Assembly (NCBI GenBank): GCA_961205875.1
Contig: OY540810.1
Span: forward strand, 19,034,001 to 19,098,000
Direction: 5' to 3'
DNA length: 64,000 nt
Origin: Sialis fuliginosa
Taxonomy: Eukaryota > Arthropoda > Insecta > Megaloptera > Sialidae
Position 1 is the stretch's first letter. Each line of letters starts with the position of its first letter. The position numbers were made by a program, and so were the translations under genes. A model generated the notes under the pieces. That model made no database searches and had not been told where the DNA came from. It saw only the letters and a program-made list of their open reading frames with translations. Below, piece by piece: positions 9,426-62,160 of the stretch.

Positions 9426-9826
9426 GATAAATCAAAATCCGTTCGCTTCCCTTCGGACTCTAAAATCTCCTTTACGCAAACTAAATATGATCTCTATTGA
9501 TGTTGTCTAACTGTTAACCTCTATAACTCGAAACTTTCATTAAAACACATTTACTTCTATATTGGAATATAATCATTTCCAGATTAGTGCGAGAGCTGAT
9601 GACATATTTTTCTGCCCCATCTGAGCACTAGGCAGACTTACGGAAATCGTTTATTCATGTGTTGTACATCATGGGAAAAATAGTCCAAACCCCCATACCC
9701 GGGGATAAAGGGGTTTAATTCCTTAGTGAACATGTAAAGAAAAAGTGCATTTTTGCCCCATGTGAGCACTAATAAAATCATCACAGGGAGTTAGTTTATG
9801 AAAAGTTAGATAGTGAAAGTGCAATG

Positions 9827-10150
9827 GGCAGACGCGTAGGGTGGGGATAAGGGGCAGGCAGACGCACTCAAAGATGCAATATTTTTTTTGAAAATTGCCC
9901 CATTTGAGCATTGATGAATTTTGGAGGGATGGCAGTTTTTGATCTGTAGATGATCGAAAAAACAAAGGCAGACGCGTAGGATGGGGATAAGGGACGGGCA
10001 GACGCGCTCAAACATGTAATTTTTTTAATGAAAATTGTCTCATTTGAGCATTGATGAATTTTTTGAAGGATGACAGGTTTTGATCTGTAGATGACAGAAA
10101 AAACATAGGCAGACGTGTAGTGTGGGGATAAGGGGAGGGCAGACGTAATT
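9827..10150 (+). repeat. Minisatellite of ~140-bp units (left foldback arm)
   Basis: Units start at 9827, 9967 and 10108 (the last partial) with GGCAGACG(C/T)GTAG. Each contains GGGGATAAGG and a conserved CATTTGAGCATTGATGAATT. The mirror copy in the other arm spans about 10641-10964. Confidence 0.8.
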
Positions 10151-10319
10151 GAAAGTGGCAAAGGGTTGTAATTTTTTTAAAAACATTGTATCTTCGGTAC
10201 TAAATATTCCACCGATGATATCAAATATGTTTTAGAATTATCTAAGTAAGAAGAAAATATGTCTCTTGTAGTTTTTTTGATGTTAAGTACCGTTTTGCTG
10301 AAATTTATAAATTTATAAA

Positions 10320-10360: not shown

Positions 10361-11209
10361 ATGTTTTATTTATTTATTTTTTGTTTTTTGTTTATTACAC
10401 AGAATAAGAAGAATATAATCAAAATATAATAAAAAAAAATTTCAGCGCCTACTTTTTTACACGTTTTATATTTTTTTTTAGATTTTCATATTAATGAAAT
10501 TTTTCCTTTTCGTGTTAGTTCGGGGTAAACAAATGTGTTTTCAAAGAACTAATGTGTTATCCAGAGAGTCATTGCGGACAACTTCAAGCATAAAAAATAA
10601 TTACAAAACAACCCAGTTAAAAAAATAGGATAACATTTTCAATTGCGTCTGCCCATCCCTTATCCCCACACTATGCGTCTGCCTGTGTTTTTTCGTTCAT
10701 CTACAGATCAAAACCTGTCATCCTTCAAAAAATTCATCAATGCTCAAATGAGACAATTTTCATTAAAAAAATTACATGTTTGAGCGCGTCTGCCCGTCCC
10801 TTATCCCCATCCTACGCGTCTGCCTTTGTTTTTTCGATCATCTACAGATCAAAAACTGCCATCCCTCCAAAATTCATCAATGCTCAAATGGGGCAATTTT
10901 CAAAAAAAATATTGCATCTTTGAGTGCGTCTGCCTGCCCCTTATCCCCACCCTACGCGTCTGCCCATTGCACTTTCACTATCTAACTTTTCATAAACTAA
11001 CTCCCTGTGATGATTTTATTAGTGCTCACATGGGGCAAAAATGCACTTTTTCTTTACATGTTCACTAAGGAATTAAACCCCTTTATCCCCGGGTATGGGG
11101 GTTTGGACTATTTTTCCCATGATGTACAACACATGAATAAACGATTTCCGTAAGTCTGCCTAGTGCTCAGATGGGGCAGAAAAATATGTCATCAGCTCTC
11201 GCACTAGAT

Positions 11210-12337
11210 CAACAAATATCAAAATTTTTAATTTAATGTAATTGACATGTTGGTGTATCGTAAGTGTAAACGGTTGTGTTGTATATAAAACTTCAATATG
11301 AAAAATTTCTCAGTTTTACATTTAATATTGTATCGATAATATCATTCTTTACACTGAAATTCTATCTACAGTTATCAATTTTTATTTGTAACAATTTTAA
11401 TTTTAACTATGACTTTCTATTTTAATTAATTTCTATTTTTCACATGCCACAACATGATATCTCTAGTCTCAATGCACAGAGGTAAAAAAACAAAATAAAG
11501 GTCTAATAAAAAACTACAAAAAATATTTGAAATACTTATTAATAAAATTAGCTGTTTTGATGTTATTAATGAAAAAAACTACTTTTTCACTCCATGCCAA
11601 ACTACTCCTGCACTCCTTAATCAACTACGCTCATCAGTTTCTTAAAGTGTAGGTATAAAAACACATATGTACCAATGTTCGTTGATGAAAGATATTTTTA
11701 CCGTAGTATATAATAAACAAAACACTTAAAGTCTTCTACAATAAGCTTTATACCTCTTAATCAGGTCTCTATATACCGATGTTTATGTAATATTTTGCAT
11801 TTGGATTGTTTTGATGGAAAGGTATATATAAAGGTATAATAAATCTTTACGCTCGGTCTTATACAATTTTTAGGTCCGTTTCATAAGAAAGTCATCAATG
11901 AGGTATTGACCACTCAGATTTTGTTTTGTAGAGTGTAGACCAACAGCAGTTAAATATGATCAGCAATTTTTTTGCAATGGGACGTTCACCCTGTGTTATG
12001 AGTGACGGAAGTCTCCACGCCTATACGATTTTTTGAAGTCCACATTATAGCTGCCTTGTAATTACACAATTGATTCTGAAAAGTATATGATGTTATCATA
12101 CAGCGACTAAATTAATCACACGTGTCGTTATTTTAGAGCTTAGCATAATTTTTTTATATATCGTTCCCTACAAAAATAAATAAAAATAAAGTACATATTA
12201 TTAAAGAAAATTATGTCGTCTGGGATCATATTATTCATTTTTGTGTCTTGTAAAATTAGAAAAATGTCGTTTACAGTACATTGACTTTTAGGGGACGATA
12301 TAAACTCTGACACATCCATCGAAACAATCCCAAGACA
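11210..12337. other. AT-rich noncoding DNA
   Basis: Nothing supportable is visible. The sequence is simple AT-rich DNA without recognisable ends or exons. Confidence 0.4.
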
Positions 12338-47743: not shown

Positions 47744-49885
47744 CACTCACGGAAAAAAATAAAGGACCACTTTTATTTTTCGAAAAAATTGCTCATTTTC
47801 AATGTAATGCCGATAGGTCAAATATGATCCATTTTTTACTTATAGGATATGAAAATTGAAGGAAATTTTATCATCTTTTCGAATTTGTTCAGCTTTAAAA
47901 TGCTTTTTCAAATTTGTTTTATAATTTTTTGGTGTCGCGATATTCGAGTTTGAATGAAAAAAGTACCAAAAAGATTTAAACGACCATAAAGGCCCTAATG
48001 TTAGTCACATAGAAAAGAAAAAAAAAGAATATTAAAGCTTAAATAATCACTTATTGTCTAGTAGCATTTAAAAAATGTTTAATTTTAACTTAACCCTTCA
48101 CATACGAGAAACAAAACAGTGTTCGAATTTAAATAATCCTGTAAAAATAACCTTTTTTTAATCATAGATCTAATGTTTAAAATGTATCCAGAAATTAAGT
48201 TCTATCAAAGAATATGAAAATTAGACTTATTACCTTCTATGTGAACAAAGGTTCCAGTAAAAATCTTTTAATTTGGCTGAGAAATTGCATTTTGAATTTT
48301 TTGTATACGTTTAGGATTTGACCATACTTTTTATAACAAGTTTTTCTTTGGGATTTTTTTTAATCAATTTTTGAGAAAAATTGTAAGAGGGAAAAAGTTT
48401 TTCTTTCTTGTTAAAGAATATTCATAATTTTTTTCAGATGTTTTATATCAATATTGTGGGATTAAGTTTATTTTTAATATGGTACTTTTTCATTCAAACT
48501 TGAATATCTTGGCATCAAAAAATGTGACAATCATTTTTTAAAAAGCATTTTGAAGCTGAGAAAATTTACTAAATGATGAATATCATGGAATTTTGAAAAA
48601 AAAATCATACATCCCTGTGTGAAACATCCATAATTACAAAAAATTTCAATTTTTCAATTTTAGTCAACTGCGTGTGGTCATAAAAAAAAACGTTCAACAA
48701 CATATTAAAGACTCTTGATTTCGACAGTTAAATTAATTTTCATTGAATTTTCACCGCTTATTCGTTCAAAGTAACTGAATTTTTTTTGTCCACACGTAGT
48801 TGACTAAAAAAAAATTAATTATTTATTTGCTGTTATAGAAATTTCACACGGGGATGTATGATTTTTTTTTCAAAATTCCATGATATTCATCATTTAGTAA
48901 ATTTTCTCAGCTTCAAAATGCTTTTTAAAAAATGATTGTCACATTTTTTGATGCCAAGATATTCAAGTTTGAATGAAAAAGTACCATATTAAAAATAAAC
49001 TTAATCCCACAATATTGATATAAAACATCTGAAAAAAATTATGAATATTCTTTAACATGAAAGAAAAACTTTTTCCCTCTTACAATTTTTCTCAAAAATT
49101 GATTGTTTTTCGAAAAAAAATCTCAAATAAAAACTTGTTATAAAAAGTATGGTCAAATCCTAAACGTATACAAAAAATTCAAAATGCAATTTCTCAGCCA
49201 AATTAAAAGATTTTTACTGGAACTTTTATTCACATAGAAGGTAATAAGTCTAATTTTCATATTCTTTGATAGAACTTAATTTCTGGATACATTTTAAACA
49301 TTAGATCTATGATTAAAAAAAGGTTATTTTTACAGGATTATTTAAATTCGAACACTGTTTTGTTTTTCGTATGTGAAGGGTTAAGTTAAAATTAAACATT
49401 TTTTAAATGCTACTAGACAATAGGTGATTATTTAAGCTTTAATATTCTTTTTTTTTCTTTTCTATGCGACTAACATTAGGCCCTTTATGGTCGTTTAAAT
49501 CTTTTTGGTACTTTTTTCATTCAAACTCGAAAATCCCAACACCAAAAAATTATAAAACAAATTTGAAAAAGCATTTTAAAGCTGAACAAATTTCCTACAA
49601 AATGGTTGTCTTGAAATTTTAGAAAAAAAATTTAACATCCCCGTGGGTATCTTTCAAAATTACAAAAAAAAATCAATTTTTTTATTTTTCATTAAACCGC
49701 GATTTGGTCACAAAAATAAGATTAATAAAACAAATATACCCCTAAATTTGAAAAGATGATAAAATTTCCTTCAATTTTCATATCCTATAAGTAAAAAATG
49801 GATCATATTTGACCTATCGGCATTACTTTGAAAATGAGCAATTTTTTCGAAAAATAAAAGTGGTCCTTTAATTTTTCCGTGAGTG
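47744..49885. mobile_element. 2.1-kb palindromic element with TA duplication
   Basis: It begins CACTCACGGAAAAAAATAAA and ends with the complement (...TTTTTCCGTGAGTG), flanked by TA (47742-47743, 49886-49887). The two halves pair nearly end to end around a centre at about 48735. The right arm holds ~160 bp (around 49590-49745) missing from the left. Arm landmarks are AAAGGACCACTTTTATTTTT, TGACCTATCGGCATTAC and AGGATTTGACCATAC with their complements. No frame encodes a transposase. The TA duplication suggests a Tc1/mariner-type source; a transcript would form a very long double-stranded hairpin. Confidence 0.9.
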
Positions 49886-51637: not shown

Positions 51638-51735
51638 AAAAAACATTGAGCTTTAAATTAATACAAACTTGTACCTTTCAAAATTACATAAGTATTCGTT
51701 TTTCAGTAGGCTTAAAAGTTCGATTAACCCATGTA

Positions 51736-53415
51736 GTGGAGTCATATAACCGATTTTTTTTTGAATAAAACAATCTCTCCCTACAGCGATTTTATGATTT
51801 TAAAATGTTCTAGGGATCAAGAGAAGTTCATAACTGAGTTTGTGGATTAATCCGTATTCCGTGCGGTACTTTTTTCACGACTTTTCCGGAAATTCATCGA
51901 TTTTTCCTGTTTGCGGTTCGATTTTTCGCGAATATCTCCGCTTCTACTTGATCAATATCGACCAAAAAAAATAGGGTCACTCATAAGGAACCCCTCTATC
52001 CATCTGTGGGAGGCGGAATACTATAACTTAATTTCTAACCTCAAAAAAAATTACAAACTGCGCATACAACAGATTTTTCATTTTTTCTCAATTACTTTGC
52101 AACAAGTATGAATATTTTGATGAAAATAAGGAAACATGTACCTCTTATGATCCTTAATAAACCTACCTAGTTTGATTTCAAAATATTCAAAATTGCCGCT
52201 AAAATTTATATTTTCAAACCATCGTAGAGCAATTTTTTTTATCTCAAATTGTAGGGTATTTTATGTCTTTTTAAATGATGTATATATACTTACCCATACA
52301 TTCTGAAACAAAAAAGTTATTAAGATTTTTCTGAACTGATTTTTGCTTTTTCGAATTGTTGCCGTAAATACATTTTTCCCGCTTAACTTTCATTATTGTT
52401 CAAAACAAATTACAAAATTTAAAATCTAGTTAAAAGATGAGTGTTTGAAAGAAATTTAACATATTTTTACTATATTAATTAGTAGGTCGCCCCAAAAATT
52501 CGGAAATTTTAAAATTTCACCTGCACAAATTAATCAGTTTTTTGTTGTTGAAAATATATTTTATTTGAAATTTTATTTTTAGTAACGAGAAAAAAATTTA
52601 ATTAAATTCAAAGTTATTTATTAAAACAACATAAAATTACAGACGAATACTCTAAATATATATTTTAACCAAGCCTCATTAGCTTAACAGTTATTTCTGA
52701 ATCATCAGATTAATCAAAAGCTTCAATTATTCATGTGTAATGAAGAATTAAGTCGTTTTTATATGGACCATCTTTTCCTGTAGGACTACCAAATGAAATA
52801 AATATCCATAAGCTACCTCTCGTACAAGTGAATCTGTTAGAAAACTTAATTTTTAATTTTTTTTAACCTATTTCATTACTAAAAATAAAAATTTCATGTA
52901 TGGAAATATATTTTTAACAACAAAAACTCATTAATTTGTGCGGGTGAAATTTTAAAATTTCCGAATTTTTGGGGCGACCTACTAATTAATATAGTAAAAA
53001 TATGTTAAATTTCTTCCAAACACTCATCTTTTAACTAGATTTTAAATTTTGTAATTTGTTTTGAACAATAATGAAAGTTAAGCGGGAAAAATGTATTTAC
53101 GGCAACAATTCGAAAAAGCAAAAATCAGTTCAGAAAAATCTTAATAACTTTTTTGTTTCAGAATGTATGGGTAAGTATATATACATCATTTAAAAGGGCA
53201 TAAAATACCCTACAATTTGAGATAAAAAAAATTGCTCTACGATGGTTTGCCCAAAGATGGCGCGCCAATCAATTTTTTTTTTTAAATATAAATTTTAGCG
53301 CCAATTTTAAATATATTATGAACTTCTCTTGATCCCTAGAACATTTTAAAATCATAAAATCGCTGTAGGGAGAGATTGTTTTATTCAAAAAAAAAATTCG
53401 GTTATATGACTCCAC
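51736..53415. mobile_element. 1.7-kb palindromic element with TA duplication
   Basis: The ends are GTGGAGTCATATAACCGA and its complement, flanked by TA (51734-51735, 53416-53417). The arms pair with landmarks AACAATCTCTCCCTACAGCG, TAGGTCGCCCCAAAAATTCG and AAGTTAAGCGGGAAAAATG in one arm and their complements in the other, around a centre near 52734. The left arm has about 320 bp (roughly 51840-52170) not found in the right, so the palindrome is asymmetric. There is no transposase frame. It differs in sequence from 47744-49885 but has the same architecture. Confidence 0.9.
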
Positions 53416-53417
53416 TA

Positions 53418-54394: not shown

Positions 54395-54955
54395 CTTATT
54401 GTAAACAAGTATTGTTTTAATTTTACCTGTAACGAAAGACCAAATGTGGACCTTTTATTTTACGAAAGGATGAAATTTTTTCGCGAATTGTCTAGATACG
54501 ATGTTTTTAAAAAGTGTATATTTTTTAAATTTAGGGTAACTATATCCATAGAGGTTAAATATGGTAAACAAAATTTTCAAACAATTTTTTTTATAAAATC
54601 ACACTTGAATTGTGAAAATGTAAATCTCAATTAATAGTCAAAAATGTACCTCTAAGTGGCTCTAAACAGGCCACGTAGTACGTACTTCGGAACCCTTGTG
54701 GCATTCACCGTGTATGTTATTTGCCGATTTTTTTAAATGTTAACTGTGAATAAACAATGTATCAAAATTATTAATACCAGCAAAGGTTGCAACAAAAATT
54801 CGATTCTCTCAATTTTTCAGATGGAATTATCAGAATACCTACAGAAAATTTCAATGATCTTAGTATATTATTCACCTTTGTATTTTAGGATATGGATAAT
54901 GGATAAATTTTAATAGAACGTAATTATTAATCGTATTTGATATAAACAATAACTT
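54395..54955. other. AT-rich noncoding DNA
   Basis: No clear feature. The frame starting inside the preceding MITE at 54353 is a repeat-edge frame and was rejected. Confidence 0.35.
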
Positions 54956-55106
54956 GTGATTTTCTATTTGTTGAATCAGAATCAGAAACCGAAACATATA
55001 CCTATATTGAAACCAATTCAAAATCTAAAGTTACGAAAATTGTATTTAAATTATAAAAGAAAGTATAGCTACTTGAAGATGGAATTAGAGAAGTTGAGAA
55101 AGAGCA
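54956..55106 (+). pseudogene. Interrupted reading frame, left part (insertion site)
   Basis: An open frame ends ...YLKMELEKLRKS, Lys/Leu/Glu-rich and helical, like a short coiled coil, and runs straight into the CACTG end at 55107. After one copy of the CA duplication is removed it continues in phase into 61401-61471 (NMMPVNWSDEFNFQLLSQ..., then TAG). The upstream start is not certain: an acceptor-like TTTGTTGAATCAG precedes 54979, so this may be an exon. The product is unknown; coiled-coil segments of this kind occur in THAP-type and other transposase-related proteins, but that is only a suggestion. Confidence 0.4.
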
Positions 55107-56310
55107 CACTGTTAAAAATTTTTGTAAATTTACTACATTTTTACTAAGCAGTTGCTTTGTAAAATTACAAACTCTCGTATTGTATTGGAATTTTCAAACG
55201 CATTCGTAGTAATATTGCAATTTGTAATAACAAGAGTACTAAGCAGGTTGCAATTTTACAAATTTTTTGTATTCGTCAGAAACTTGTTGTAATTTTACCA
55301 TTCTAAGTTGTAGAATTAAATCTAAAGTTTTGTAAAATTTCCATACATATTCGGAATTTAATTTTACCACAATTATCTGTAAAATTACTAACCAAAATTT
55401 GCAATTACAATCTCAAGAAGTGATTGGAAATTTACAAATCATTATTTATTTTTTCAAATTCAGTTTGCATTTTTACAAAAATTTATTCAAGTCATGAGCG
55501 CTATGTATTTTTACATTTCTTGTTTGTAATTTTAAGTCTAAAACTTTGTAAAATTTCTACACATATTCGGAATTTAATTTTACCACATTTATCTGTAAAA
55601 TTACTAACCAAAATTTGCAATTACAATCTCAAGAAGTGATTGGAAATTTACAAATCATTATTTATTTTTTCAAATTCTGTTTGCATTTTTACAAAAATTC
55701 ATTCAAGTCATGAGCGCTATGTATTTTTACAATTCTTATTTGTAATTTCAAGTCTAAAACTTTGTAAAATTTCTACACATATTCGGATTTTGATTTTACC
55801 AAGATTAATAGTAAAATTACTAACCGAAACTTGCAGTTACAATTACAGGAAATTTACAAATCATTACTTTTTTTTTGAAAATTCTGTTTGTATTTTTACA
55901 AAATTTCTTTCAAGTCATGAGCGCTATGTATTTTTACAATTCTTGTTTGTAATTTCAAGTCTAAAATTTTGTAAAATTTTTATACCTATTTGTAGTCTAA
56001 TCTTACTACAGTTATCAAAAAAATGACTAACTGAAATACGTAATCCAAATTGCAAAAAGTGATTGAAAAATTGTAAAACTTTAATTACTTTAGATTTGTT
56101 TATATTTTTACTAGTGTCTCTTACAATCATATAGTTTTATGTAATCTTCTAATTCTGCTGTGTAGTTTCAAGTATAAAACTTGGTATATTTATTTTGCAT
56201 TTTTATAAAATTGTGACTTATGCAGATTTAAAATTTAATTTGAATGCAGTTCTAAGTAAAATTAGTAGCAAACATTTATACTTGAATTGCAAGTATGAAG
56301 TATAGATTAT
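55107..56310. repeat. Left sub-terminal array with 216-bp tandem units
   Basis: Motifs such as GTAAAATTACTAAC and AATTTTACAA recur throughout. A 216-bp unit containing TTGGAAATTTACAAATCATT, CAAGTCATGAGCGCTATGTA and CACATATTCGGA is tandemly repeated. Full copies begin near 55424 and 55640, with a shortened third near 55847 and a partial one before 55424. Apparent proteins that start MEIYKSLFIFSNSVC are translations of this repeat. Confidence 0.85.
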
Positions 56311-56723
56311 AAAAAAATATTTTTTTTTTATTAAAATGTTTTAATATACATGTTGTTTCTGAATATGAAATATGTTAGTTTTATAAAAAAAACCTCATAG
56401 AATCGATCAAGTGTATAAAAAAAATTGTGAAAGAACCGAATTATTCACTGTGGTAAAAAATAGTGATAAAATTTAATTGTAAGTGTAATAGGGTATGTTC
56501 AAATCTGCATATCAACATTTTTTATATTTGAAAGTAAGTAAATCTTTGCTAATTATTATTTATGAATTATATATAAACTGGTCAAAATGCCTAAAACAAC
56601 CTTTATAAATGCTCCATATGCCGGTGTAAAACAACCTTTAATTTTATTCGAATTTGCAAGTCCCGACCAGCATAGAAAAAATCATTGTTGCGTTTCTTTT
56701 GACATGCCGACACAAGTATAGAA

Positions 56724-56766
56724 CAGTGATTCTCAAAGTGTGGGTCGCGACTCCTAGGAAGGTCGC
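56724..56766 (+). mobile_element. hAT-type terminus nested in the CACTA-like element
   Basis: CAGTGATTCTCAAAGTGTGG followed by GTCGCGACTCCTAGG matches the widespread hAT end CAG(T/C)G(G/A)TTCTCAA...GTGGGTCGCGAC. No complementary end was found downstream, so only a left end or fragment is present. Confidence 0.6.
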
Positions 56767-56894
56767 AGAAAAATTGATGACATAAACCGAGTTTAGTAAG
56801 CAAACAATTATTTTTTACTTGGTGTGAAAACAGTGTCCACTATTCGCTGAATTAACAATGACAGTTCTCTTGCCATTTGCAACCAACTTATTTA

Positions 56895-58206
56895 TAGGCG
56901 AGCGGATTATCGAGTCTAGCTCGCTTAGAAATGACAATAACCGACCAATCGACGTTCTAGTGGCTAAAAATGATTTTATTAAATTCTTTATATTTTTCTG
57001 AGAAAAAACATCTATATACATTAAAAAATCTGAAAAAATTATGTAAGCTTCATTGGATTAAATTGAACATTTTTTGTCTCATAAACTTTTTTTTAAAATC
57101 AATTGTTTTGAAGATAAAAAATATTTATACTTTAAAAATAGCGAAAAATTCGTATATTTGTGATTTTTTTTCTCGGAAACTAATTGTTCAATCAAAATAA
57201 ATCAAAAACAAAAAGAATCAGCCAACTTTGAACTATAACTATATTTTTTTTCATTTTGATCATTACTGTAATTAAATGTAAAAACTTCATTAGAGCCGAA
57301 CTCACTCTTTGCGCCGTAAATCGATACCATGGCTGGCTACAACATTCATTTAATAATAATTGAAATATTTAAATACTGGGATGAATGCATCAATAAAAAC
57401 ACTTTAGAATATTTTTATTGCACATTTATTTGTCACGATTATTTTCTTTATTATAATATTATACTTATCAGAACATCTACAAAAAATATTTCTGTTCTTG
57501 TTGCGGAAAATTTCCTTGTACAGCTAAAACATGCTCTTGTTTGGATTTAGATTTAAAATGTTGTTCAGTTTGTAGATGTTTTGATAAGTGTAACAATAAA
57601 GAAAATAATTGTAACAAATAAATGTGCAATAAAAATATTCTAAAGTGTTTTTATTGAAACTTTCATTAAGTATTTAAATATTTCAACTATTAAACGAAAA
57701 TTGTAGCCAGCCATGGTATCGATTTACGGCGCAAGGAGTGAGTTCGGCTCTAATGAAGTTTTTACATTTAATTACAGTAATAATCAAAATGAAAAAAAAT
57801 CTAATTATAGTTTAAAGTTGGCTGATTCTTTTTGTTTATGTTTTATTCTGATTGAACAATTAGTTACCGAGAAAAAAATTCACAAATATACGAATTTTTC
57901 GCTATTTTTAAAGTTAAAATATTTTTTATCTTCAAAACTATAGCTTTAAAAAAAAAGTTTATGAGACAAAAAATGTTTATTTTAATCCAATGAAGTTTAC
58001 ATAATTTTTTCAGATTTTTTAATGCAGATTTAGATTTATTAAACAAAAAAATGTGTGTACCTATTGAAGGACCGCATAAAAAAATATCATGTATATAGAT
58101 GTTTTTTCTCAGAAAAATATAAAGAATTTAATAAAATCATTTTTAGCCACTAGAACGTCGATTGGTTGGTTAGTGTACTCGAAATAGCTGTAATCCGCTC
58201 GCCCTA
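56895..58206. mobile_element. 1.3-kb palindrome nested in the CACTA-like element
   Basis: The outer repeats TAGGCGAGCGGATTA and its complement ...TAATCCGCTCGCCCTA enclose arms of nearly 600 bp that pair to about 57485 and from about 57570. Both arms carry CCATGGCTGGCTACA, GAGCCGAACTCACTC and ATAAAAACACTTTAGAAT in mirror order. The spacer is only about 85 bp and sits inside a cysteine-rich coding fragment. The flanks TATTTATA and TATTATAC are only partly alike. Opposing frames in the two arms (57329-57550, 57713-57943 and antisense) are mirror translations, not genes. Confidence 0.85.
57457..57621 (+). pseudogene. CXC-like cysteine-rich domain fragment
   Basis: A 54-codon frame ending in TAA encodes 12 Cys within about 41 residues: CSCCGKFPC, then KTCSCLDLDLKCC, then SVCRCFDKCNN and NNCNK. 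The spacing CxC...CxC-x6-CC-x2-CxC-x3-CNN resembles the tesmin/TSO1 CXC zinc-cluster domain and the CxC clusters attached to some insect transposon proteins, which bind DNA. There is no start Met, so this is an exon or fragment. The centre of the surrounding palindrome lies at about 57522; the part after KCC is in the right arm, and the left arm holds a mutated antisense copy (CRCSDK). The CXC label is motif-based. Confidence 0.55.
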
Positions 58207-58953
58207 TTATACGAAATGGTATTTTCAGTACTGACCAACATCAAAACAAAGCCGCGCTCACTCATCACATTAAATTTAATTTAAAATATTTTTAGTAAAC
58301 TCAATTAGTTAGTTAAGTTAATGTCGAAAAATATACAAATAATATTTTGTTCAAAGATGTACTCGAGATAAGTTATTAACTTGTTATTAATTATTATTGA
58401 TATTAAATTTCGCTATTAATCACAATTATGAGTGATTCAATTCAAAAAGTTTGAGAAATACTGGTATAGAACATAGTTTCATGTGAACGCGCTGGCGGAA
58501 GGGGTAAATTTTGTTACATTTTATTTTCTCACGATGCTAAGCTACTGCGTATGAGCAATAATACGATTTTTGAACTGTCGTTATTAAAAATTTGTTGTGT
58601 AAAGATTGATGCTGCTACAAGTGATTTTTTATAATTCTGTTGTTTAATCCAATAATTGTTTTTAACGTTTATTGAATATATATCTGTTATAATTCAGGTA
58701 ACTTTTTCACCTACTTACATCTTTAAGCTGTAGCCATTTGTCTAAACAAATGATTTTTATTTTTGGAGTTAAAATTTTAAGGCAAAAGAAATAATTTCTT
58801 GTTTCAAATAATTTTTTTCCAAAACTAAGATTTTAATATTTGAAATGTGTAATCAAATTTTGATAAGTGTTTTAAAATTTCACGACAAATAAGTATAACT
58901 TCTAACGCGTGTACATAAGTACACATACCCACTTTTTGTTTTGTTTTTTATAG

Positions 58954-60426
58954 ACATGGATCATAAATATCGTCTTATATTATATTATATTATATATACA
59001 TGGCTTCATTTTGAAAAAGATTCTGATAAGGTATATTGCAAATATATGCCAGGCCTGCTTGATGATCCAAATGTATGCGAAGAACTGCAAGAAATGGTGA
59101 AAAATTTAGAACCACCCAAATCTACATAGCCAACATTTCTAGTGGATATTCGCGGAAGTGCTCGTAAGTAATGATATGTTATTTTAAAATAAATTCTTTA
59201 CCACAATATTAATTTTTTTACATTTTATTAATTTTTGATGAGCAAAAAAAATATTTTGACATATTATTAATCAATTTTTTAGATACTTATAAAGAAGCTG
59301 AAAATAAAATCGTTGAGTTAGAAACAAAACCATATGTATACTCGACAGCAAATGAAGAATCTGCAAAAAAAAAGCAGATACTGATAAGAAGGCTCTGAAG
59401 CGCAAATTTGTTGCAAAGAATAAAGAGCTCATTAACAAACAATTTAGTCAAGCAGCATTGAAATGGACAGACGATCTTGGTATAAAAATTCGTAAGTAGT
59501 TTTAATTTTTTTTGGTAAAATTTTTTGTTATAAATATGCAACAAATATATTTTTTTTAATGTTAGATTCATCTAATCCTAAAAGTCAACACACAAAAAGA
59601 AAAAAATTGAATTCTAAATCGATTTCAATCCCAAGTTGTCACCCATCTGATGACACTGACATTAAGTCAACTTCAACGGAATTTTCCAGTGATGAAGACA
59701 ACACTAACGGATTAGATCCAAACAATATATTAAATCCAAAAAGGATTGTAAAAAAAAAAGCTGAAGAAAAACTCGAGACCAGTGCAAATCAACCAATGAC
59801 AATAGGTAAAAACATACATCGTTTTTTTTTTCTTTAATGTGTATTGGAAACGTGATTTTTTTTGTTACAGAAGATCTGCATCAATTCATATCGAGCTGTT
59901 TTGTAAGCATCGGCAAACGTTTGTCAAATTTAGGAAGTCAATTAACCAATTATTCAACCAGATTACAAAGCCTTGAAAATGTCATTGAAAAACTTCATAA
60001 TTCAACAAGCATTTTGAGTGACGAAATCAGTAACTCTGAGAGTGAATTTGACATGATTCTTCCACTACAAAATGAAGAAAGTTTTATTAAATTTAATGAT
60101 AAAATTAAAAATGATGTTGATTTTAAAAAAAAATTGGTAAGTAATCACAAATAAAATTATTATTTTTTTATATAAGCCCTATTTTATATAATTCGTTTAT
60201 AAGACATGAATAATAATTTTCTTTTTTTAGATTTACAAATTGTTATGCTAAATAAACAAGACAGTAGATATAACCAAGAATATTGGAAAGATACTCCGTG
60301 CCTACATTACTCGTGATTTGGCAATTAATTATGTGGCAATCAAAACGTCAGAATAATCTTCAAAAAAAATTTAAAATTTGTGTTAGCATTAAATTATGTT
60401 ATTATTTTCATAATATAAATTATTGA
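58954..60426 (+). pseudogene. DUF4806-type protein gene, five exons, decayed
   Basis: Five exons with matching phases can be traced: 58954-59163, 59283-59491, 59566-59805, 59871-60136 and 60231-60426. Introns are short, with GTAAGT/GTAAAA donors and T-rich AG acceptors. The protein starts MDHKYRLIL, and exon 2 has TYKEAENKIVELE, as in insect DUF4806 proteins. Exon 3 is a Ser/Lys-rich linker; exon 4 has FVSIGKRLSNLGSQL and the DUF4806 start ILPLQNEESFIKFNDKIKND. Exon 5 has KTVDITKNIGKILRAYITRD and LAINY. Lesions: a TAG in exon 1 (59127-59129) where a Trp is expected, one missing base in a run of 9 A in exon 2 (about 59374-59382), a TAA in exon 5 (60249-60251) and a shift after LAINY. The function of DUF4806 is not established. 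Confidence 0.75.
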
Positions 60427-60554
60427 TAACACTGTTATAATTAATGACATATGTTTAATTGTTAATTAAATAATTAATAAATTAATATTTAATAAATATT
60501 TTATATTTAACACTAAAATACGCTGTTGTAGCATTCATTGATTTAACAATTTTT

Positions 60555-61398
60555 TTCAGTAAAATTACAGTCTGATATTGAAATAAAGCTATGCAAGTTA
60601 TATCCCGATGCATAGTAATATTGCAACGAGCGGTTTGTATTTTTTTCAAATTGACTTGATGTAAGTTGGGTAGTAAAAATTCAATACTGCAACAAATAGT
60701 TTGTAATTTTTCGAAACTAAATTGGTATTAGTTGGGTTGAAAAATTACGATATATGGTTGTAAAATTACTAAATGTATTTAATCTAATTTGTTTAGTAAA
60801 ATTCCGACTATTGTATTGTAATATTACTAAACAATTTTTTAATAAAGGTTAGTAATATTGCAACAAATAGTTTGTAATTTTTCTAAACTAAATTGGTATA
60901 AATTGTCTAGTATAATTACAATAAATTTTTGTAAAATTACTAAAATTATTAGAAACATTTGGCTTAGTAAAATTACGAATAATGTACAGTAATATTACTA
61001 AACATAAGTCTAGTAAATGATTAGTAATTTTGCGACAGATGATTTGTAATAGTTTAAAATTGAGTTGTGATAAATTGTATAGTAAATTTACAAAACTGTG
61101 TTCCATAATTCCGAAAATTGTGGTGCGTAAAAACTTCCTACACATTTTTGTAAAATTACTAAAATTATTAGAAACATTTGGCTTAGTAAAATTACGAATA
61201 ATGTACAGTAATATTACTAAACATAAGTCTAGTAAATGATTAGTAATTTTGCGACAGATGATTTGTAATAGTTTAAAATTGAGTTGTGATAAATTGTATA
61301 GTAAATTTACAAAACTGTGTTCCATAATTCCGAAAATTGTGGTGCGTAAAAACTTCCTACACATTTTTGTAAAATTACTAAAAAAATTTTTGACAGTG
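60555..61398. repeat. Right sub-terminal array with a 219-bp tandem duplication
   Basis: AGTAAAATTAC, GTAATATTACTAAA and AGTAATATTGCAACAAATAG recur in both orientations. A 219-bp block is present twice in tandem (about 60927-61145 and 61146-61364), virtually identical, and begins again before the terminal repeat, where GTAAAATTAC recurs at 60931, 61150 and 61369. The duplicated 73-residue frame on the minus strand and its plus-strand counterparts are translations of this block. The near-identity suggests a recent expansion. Confidence 0.9.
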
Positions 61399-61471
61399 CA
61401 ACATGATGCCAGTAAACTGGTCAGACGAATTTAATTTTCAATTACTGTCTCAAAATTCTTTCAAAATGTAG
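61399..61471 (+). pseudogene. Interrupted reading frame, right part
   Basis: This continues the frame of 54956-55106 after one CA copy is dropped: an Asn codon spanning the join, then MMPVNWSDEFNFQLLSQNSF and a TAG at 61469-61471. The phase match is seen directly; that it was one exon is inference. Confidence 0.4.
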
Positions 61472-61879
61472 AAATTAAAAAACTTAACGAATTAATAAAA
61501 ACAATATAAAATGTATAGGTAAAAACTAACCTATCTTCAGAAGAAAGTGCCTAATTATCTATAAAAATCAAAAGTATAAATAGATGTGTTCATATCGCAA
61601 ATAATCGACTTTTGCACGTCAATTCTAAATATCACTTTACAAAAAAAATCAGCAATATAAAAAAAAAGATTACAAATGTCTAGCAAATTTTAAATCCAAT
61701 CATATCAATACAATAAAAAATTTACATGTGTGTACGAAAACAGACATGTACATATAACATACAGGTAGATATTTGGTGAATATATACAACATAGGTATAT
61801 CTAAATATTTTTACACGAGCAAATATCTAAAAGTCAGACGCTTTTTTCTACACACAAACACACACATATACAACGCAGT
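61472..61879. other. AT-rich noncoding DNA
   Basis: No supportable feature, apart from short CA runs near 61855. Confidence 0.4.
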
Positions 61880-62160
61880 CAAAGGTCACCGCGATTGTAT
61901 TGTGTAGTTGTTGTAACGGCGGCGGCGAACGTGGGGGTGAGAGAGTGGTTTCCGCGGCCGGGGATTATTTTAGGGTGGATTTAATGGCGACCACTGGAAA
62001 TGCAATATACCAGGTGATACCAGGCGCCAGACAATGCTTGGTTTATAGCCCTGTGGTGCGTTGTTTAGGACATCATTTGCATATGATTCATATTGTACGT
62101 CTGTCAGTGGCGGGTGTGCAGTGTGCAGTAGGTAGGTACACTGAAGGAAAATGAATATGA
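61880..62160. promoter_or_regulatory. GC-rich island, possible promoter or first exon
   Basis: Composition changes abruptly to GC-rich (ACGGCGGCGGCGAACG, TTCCGCGGCCGGGG). An 84-codon frame crosses it but starts without an ATG. An internal ATGGCGACCACTGG followed by ATACCAG|GTGATA could be a tiny first exon (MATTGNAIYQ) with a weak donor. Near 62104, CAGTGGCGGGTGTGCAG also resembles a transposon end. Nothing decides between these. Confidence 0.2.

Follow-up and report, generated by a model that had tools for sequence, protein, structure and literature searches.

Structure of the element

We analysed a 64,000-nucleotide stretch of the Sialis fuliginosa genome (assembly GCA_961205875.1, contig OY540810.1, positions 19,034,001 to 19,098,000; hereafter the window, in whose numbering all coordinates without another label are given). 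One transposon with near-identical ends (CACTGTYAAAAATTTTT) occupies positions 55107–61398. It consists of two sub-terminal repeat arrays, a nested hAT-like element and a gene of five exons whose predicted product weakly resembles the DUF4806 family (PF16064). The features, with their target site duplication (TSD) and the evidence for each, are as follows.

55105–55106, no strand: left copy of the TSD, CA (2 bp); flank comparison, and the same length in all 20 other whole copies
55107–55123, + strand: left terminal inverted repeat, CACTGTTAAAAATTTTT; end comparison, same end in 40 scored genome copies
55107–56306, no strand: left sub-terminal array, 216-bp units, 22 GTAAWWTTAC sites with at most one mismatch; repeat and motif counts
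56724–58463, no strand: nested hAT-like non-autonomous element, 1.74 kb, palindromic interior; ends, TSD, inverted repeat and copies
58956–59163, + strand: exon 1, in-frame stop; gene model and copies
59283–59491, + strand: exon 2, reading frame disrupted close to a run of A; gene model and copies
59566–59805, + strand: exon 3; gene model
59871–60136, + strand: exon 4, a long helix is predicted, with a heptad pattern, followed by the start of the DUF4806-like stretch; gene model, Pfam match and structure prediction
60231–60356, + strand: exon 5, remainder of the DUF4806-like stretch, with codon 7 an in-frame stop; gene model, Pfam match and copies
60551–61398, no strand: right sub-terminal array, 219- and 171-bp units, 21 GTAAWWTTAC sites with at most one mismatch; repeat and motif counts
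61382–61398, − strand: right terminal inverted repeat, CACTGTCAAAAATTTTT read inward from 61398; end comparison
61399–61400, no strand: right copy of the TSD, CA (2 bp); flank comparison, and the same length in all 20 other whole copies

The 17-bp terminal inverted repeats are identical at 16 of 17 positions and carry CACTG at both ends. Among flank lengths of 1–10 bp, the CA/CA pair was the sole match. Comparable end pairs, defined by a CACTG start, at least 16/17 identity and a distance of 1–20 kb, occurred in none of 100 order-1 Markov windows.

The two arrays share a palindromic core, GTAAWWTTAC, which is present at 43 sites in 2.05 kb (at most one mismatch), compared with none in the 4.2-kb middle of the element and 0.59 sites per kb elsewhere in the window. 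Dinucleotide shuffles (n = 300) gave means of 0.87 sites for the left array and 0.77 for the right, with maxima of 4 and 5. Exact sites number 6 in the left and 12 in the right array; many array sites are tandem duplicates and thus not independent of each other. T occupies position −2 at 31 and A position +2 at 40 of the 43 sites, so that the extended dyad reads TnGTAAWWTTACnA. The most frequent 10-mer of the right array, GTAAAATTAC (7 times), ranks third in the left array (5 times), and site spacing in the right array often alternates between about 22 and 35 bp, as judged by eye.

We compared sites with spacers across five diverged unit pairs, which were chosen by hand with near-identical units left out, share units and are therefore not independent, and concern a motif picked for its recurrence. 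Identity was higher in the sites in all five (0.95 versus 0.75, 0.96 versus 0.80, 0.82 versus 0.70, 0.94 versus 0.74 and 0.90 versus 0.74). The corresponding P values were 0.0006, 0.0036, 0.081, 0.011 and 0.129 for random placement, and 0.006, 0.040, 0.096, 0.037 and 0.010 for shifts. The palindromic form of the arrays suggests that a dimeric DNA-binding protein may act as their reader.

A young family of full-length copies

A search of the 392,097,322-base genome (20 contigs) with the left 200 bases of the element returned 164 candidates, 40 of which, including the window copy, were scored; all 40 left ends are about 100% identical to the query. Among the 39 other places, 20 were fetched whole as 9.95-kb stretches and 19 as 1.85-kb stretches covering the gene region. 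All 20 whole copies are full length (6082–6532 bases) and have CACTG/CAGTG ends, the right end being located by its exact pattern in 16 and, where mismatched (L032, L033, L036 and L045), placed via BLAST alignment. Each is flanked by a TSD of exactly 2 bp, namely TA in 17 copies, TG in two and AA in one, although in the AA copy a 1-bp match fits equally well.

Over the 2.08-kb stretch between the hAT-like element and the right array, the 20 copies and the window copy differ by a mean of 0.33% and a maximum of 0.86% substitutions (210 pairs), and copy L026 shows no difference from that of the window over its full length. This low mean divergence indicates that the burst was recent, and the element is a young, high-copy transposon family. 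An earlier note on this DNA had described a CACTA-like transposon with CACTG...CAGTG ends, flanking CA and motif arrays adjoining both ends. Its boundaries at 55107 and 61398 proved exact to the base, as all 20 whole copies begin and stop at equivalent positions; the inverted repeat and the shared ends bear out the termini, the 43 palindrome sites lie far above the shuffles, and the transposon belongs to a real family with ends of the CACTA/Mirage/Chapaev (CMC) type and motif arrays.

Insertions were seen in individual copies. In copy L055/L065 (L065 being G000:C1:609400–613000), the left array contains 2.2 kb of inserted sequence, at about 318–2544 of L065, which is an inverted-repeat element with similar frames of more than 100 residues in both orientations (frames judged by eye). 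In copy L048 (G000:C1:19128668–19130518), exon 1 is interrupted from about position 189 by an insert starting near TCTACTATATATAACG, which is reminiscent of a Helitron start.

A DUF4806-like gene broken in every complete copy read

The gene inside the element extends over 58956–60356 on the + strand, and its five exons are separated by GT–AG introns of compatible phases. The full read-through protein matched DUF4806 weakly (17 bits, E = 0.0076) and Baculo_PEP_C nearly equally (16.5 bits, E = 0.0091); the latter match covers residues 185–272, a different stretch from the DUF4806 match, and is taken as a coiled-coil effect. With the last 76 residues alone, the DUF4806 match rose to 22.1 bits (E = 1.9e-4) over profile positions 5–58 of 90. 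Because these scores lie below the Pfam cut-off, we name the protein DUF4806-like only. An alternative splice acceptor for exon 5 was rejected, as the resulting protein has no DUF4806 match, and the first gene model was kept. Comparison of the last 73 residues with solved structures gave nothing useful (best E 8.9).

Exon 4, predicted alone from its single sequence with no alignment, is modelled as two successive helices, the first of 65 residues (mean predicted local distance difference test score, pLDDT, 89.1; predicted template modelling score, pTM, 0.47), with pLDDT of 95–98 across the first 50 residues of this long helix. In the best register, 8 of 10 heptad a/d positions are L, I, V or M; the model is of a single chain, and the helix alone is no indication of dimerisation. 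DUF4806 itself has been described as a subtype of the BEN DNA-binding domain (PMC11075544, citing Pan et al, 2023).

In the window copy of the gene, stops interrupt exons 1 and 5 and the frame of exon 2 is broken; similar damage recurs in the other copies read. The gene is present in all 20 whole copies, each with one or more stops in exon 1 and a further one within exon 5; the first stop falls at the window's codon in 17, while the remaining three have an indel upstream, and exon 2 is open in three (L029, L032 and L045). It is complete in 17 of the 19 partly read copies (L048 is cut in exon 1 by its insertion, and in L055 the gene lies beyond the fetched stretch). These 17 genes likewise all have stops in exons 1 and 5, at the same exon-5 codon in every case and at the window's exon-1 codon in 15, and exon 2 is open in one (L064). 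None of the 37 complete copies is thus open in all five exons, and all 37 carry stops in exons 1 and 5. Some single-base length changes sit in A runs and may be assembly errors; the shared stops are not of that kind.

Since the stops in exons 1 and 5 are common to all complete copies, the gene was already broken in the founder. Among the 20 whole copies and the window copy, 22 of 1049 exon columns vary, compared with 11 of 497 in introns and flanks, and these small numbers show no trace of selection on the protein after the burst. The broken frames and the exons as variable as introns and flanks together argue that the gene has no accessory role in these copies: the open, selected gene that would mark a TnpA-like function was found in none of them.

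The nested hAT-like element was carried along as well. It ends in CAGTG and CAGTA, is flanked by an 8-bp duplication (GTATAGAA, at 56716–56723 and 58464–58471) and has an interior that is mostly a long inverted repeat (353-nt arms, 92%; 88-nt arms, 98%). Near its left end lies TGGGTCGCG, a sub-terminal motif reported for Buster1 (PMC4298943). It is found between the same duplications in all 20 whole copies, and since these also share the dead gene, the founder of the burst held both. In its present state, the family is a clear-cut example of passenger amplification, both of a dead gene and of a nested transposon.

The earlier note had also placed a multi-exon DUF4806-like gene inside the element and proposed that such proteins began or serve as accessory factors of an animal CACTA lineage, or are captured cargo. 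Five exons were indeed found, with a domain match that is weak and below the cut-off. Copies lacking DUF4806 sequence, which would have spoken against the proposal, did not appear, and the gene does travel with a family that has CACTA-like ends and arrays, but it is dead in all 37 complete copies and so does not serve in them. The in-frame stops and the nested hAT-like element are features missing from that note.

Classification of the element

When 18 open frames of at least 50 residues inside the element were compared with Pfam (E up to 1), no transposase family appeared among the matches; 45 frames are listed for 54500–62000, the others lying in the arrays, in the hAT-like element (most of whose frames were unscanned) or outside. 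Without the hAT-like element, 2.5 kb remain between the arrays, 1.4 kb of which is spanned by the gene, and the usual CACTA transposase gene is too long for the remaining space. The element is therefore non-autonomous and would depend on a mover supplied in trans. A copy with both a transposase and the DUF4806-like gene was not seen among the copies read.

CMC-type elements have CACTR terminal repeats as a rule, and the element combines such repeats with a TSD in the 2–5 bp range and sub-terminal repeat motifs. Plant CACTA elements as a rule duplicate 3 bp; the 2-bp TSD found here keeps the element out of the plant-type group. Assignment to hAT (8 bp), Transib (5 bp) or Chapaev (3–4 bp) was rejected, as these TSD lengths mismatch both the window flanks and the 20 copies. 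Taken together, the element is very probably a non-autonomous CMC-like transposon moved in trans, which carries a dead accessory-like or captured gene.

Several known systems resemble the element in part. Plant CACTA (En/Spm) elements, with TnpA and TnpD, share the CACT-type ends and the arrays at both ends, have a separate array-binding protein and include defective copies moved in trans (PMC2613891, PMC1636069). In contrast to them, the present element has a 2-bp, mostly TA, TSD instead of 3 bp (also the length in Tgmt* elements; PMC2613891), a palindromic motif, a dead gene that is DUF4806-like and not TnpA, and no transposase seen inside. Among the animal CACTA-related elements TRC, SmTRC1 and Spongebob, a 2-bp TSD is reported for Spongebob (PMC4298943, PMC1636069), and a short, unconserved second protein of SmTRC1 has been proposed as a DNA binder (PMC1636069). 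Their ends start with CCC, whereas those described here start with CACTG, and no Transposase_21 was found in the scanned frames. In the CMCT lineages Mirage, Chapaev and ESTA, termini are mostly CA..TG with TSDs of 2–5 bp, and ESTA uses TA (PMC12730594); CNIRT6 of Cryptococcus, an active element of the CMC group, begins with CACTG, as here (PMC12810828). The present element offers no transposase to compare with these, and the TSD of Chapaev is 3–4 bp (PMC4079192).

Several points weigh against this classification and the history proposed for the gene. The scanned frames, in which no transposase was seen, had at least 50 residues, so that short exons could escape, and no genome-wide transposase search was made. 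With no transposase to compare, the superfamily is therefore read from the ends and the TSD. Only 39 of the 163 other candidates were inspected. Both forms of the DUF4806 match (17 and 22.1 bits) fall under the Pfam gathering cut-off of 25 bits, and the higher conservation of the sites is weak in two of the five unit pairs (random-placement P 0.081 and 0.129), which moreover share units. A truncated product terminating at the shared stops also has to be considered (see below).

Possible origins of the DUF4806-like gene

In the mechanism that we propose, a CMC-type transposase made elsewhere in the genome would cut at the element ends, while a dimeric DNA-binding protein would read the TnGTAAWWTTACnA arrays and help to bring the ends together, the part that TnpA plays for maize Spm. 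The DUF4806-like gene, with its predicted coiled-coil helix and BEN-type domain, would then be a relic that died in the founder alongside the hAT-like element and has been carried since. It may well have been the parent element's own array-binding accessory gene. Such a role would be coherent for an intact ancestor, with array binding by the DUF4806-like protein as a putative activity. Hints that fit it are the palindrome, better conserved than the spacers, and the predicted heptad helix of exon 4, which adjoins the DUF4806-like (BEN-type) stretch.

Quite possibly, the gene was instead captured from the host with its introns, never served transposition, died and was amplified passively; this is a narrower form of the classification preferred above, and its probability overlaps with it. 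The death of the gene in the founder, the missing sign of selection afterwards and the lack of a transposase in the scanned frames are all compatible with capture. The five exons, in contrast, run in order from ATG to stop between the arrays, whereas captured genes are often fragments, and the position of a dimerising DNA-binding protein next to palindromic arrays would be a coincidence. A host source is conceivable, as DUF4806 domains are numerous in some animals, with 69 and 54 reported in two Hydra (PMC7642931), and the domain is listed as enriched in an ambrosia beetle (PMC13270666); other DNA transposons bear extra genes, such as TET/JBP (PMC12730594). That the gene was neither an accessory gene nor a captured one is distinctly unlikely.

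A further possibility, which we regard as tentative, is that the gene is the TnpA-like accessory gene of the lineage and still works in other intact copies or relatives, the present subfamily being a decayed offshoot. The palindromic motif and the 65-residue predicted helix with its heptad pattern would suit such a factor, and the BEN assignment of DUF4806 (PMC11075544) adds to this: the BEN-solo factors Insensitive and Elba, which share a BEN-type domain, bind palindromes as homodimers (PMC6911014), and TnpA-like proteins bind sub-terminal motifs with little similarity between families (PMC2613891). Insensitive and Elba, however, are host insulator or repressor proteins, while the match here is to DUF4806 and under the Pfam cut-off; none of the 37 complete copies is open, and transposase and gene were not seen together in any copy.

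It is very unlikely that the model errs at the ends of the gene and that the functional product is a shorter protein stopping at the shared stops. The presence of these stops in every complete copy would be explained, but 33 of the 37 copies also have a broken exon-2 frame (though near an A run with possible assembly errors), the exons show no constraint, and the DUF4806-like match spans the exon-5 stop. Finally, that AT-rich tandem repeats of this window (G+C about 28%) happen to have CACTG ends is next to impossible: all 20 whole copies share these ends and have an exact 2-bp TSD, which refutes it, and none of the 100 simulated windows had such ends.

Beyond the preferred classification, a wider proposal can be drawn, which we consider somewhat unlikely: an animal CMC-type lineage would use a DUF4806/BEN-type coiled-coil protein as its array-binding factor, with the arrays as its sites, and part of the DUF4806 genes of insects and Hydra would be this accessory gene, live or domesticated. 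The excerpted literature on DUF4806, on DUF4806 with transposons and on BEN domains with transposases contains no link of DUF4806 to a comparable element. The array-binding proteins of different CACTA-type families hardly resemble one another, and few are known from animals, while the numerous DUF4806 genes lack an explanation. The family described here offers a direct test, as it combines defined arrays and a defined palindrome with numerous young copies, and intact relatives of its gene can be looked for.

Searches elsewhere and other features of the window

No relatives of the element were found among phages by DNA and protein searches, or by protein searches of viral contigs and of a genome contig collection. 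A search of viral contigs by end pattern gave 16 stretches, none of them a relative; the 10-base array word occurs once in one stretch and is absent from the other 15. The first bases of the element also gave one blastn match, to L013 (37 bases, 86%), which was taken as chance. A single viral contig, L025, matched a doubled GTAAWWTTAC pattern, at one place (2336–2371) and on both strands.

Neither the Rfam nor the tRNA scan of the window gave a hit, and Pfam searches of 10 window open reading frames outside the element gave nothing above the cut-off. A 2.1-kb palindrome at 47744–49885 (about 93% over 47882–49592) has the ends CACTCACGG...CCGTGAGTG with TA on both flanks, and may be a fold-back element that has CACT ends and duplicated a TA. 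An inverted duplication (9582–10157 and 10634–11210, 98%) contains repeated 100-aa open frames with no Pfam family above the cut-off. Closer to the transposon, 52215–52588 and 52873–53249 form an inverted repeat with 96% identity, accompanied by further inverted pieces at 51734–51833 and 53316–53417 (98%).

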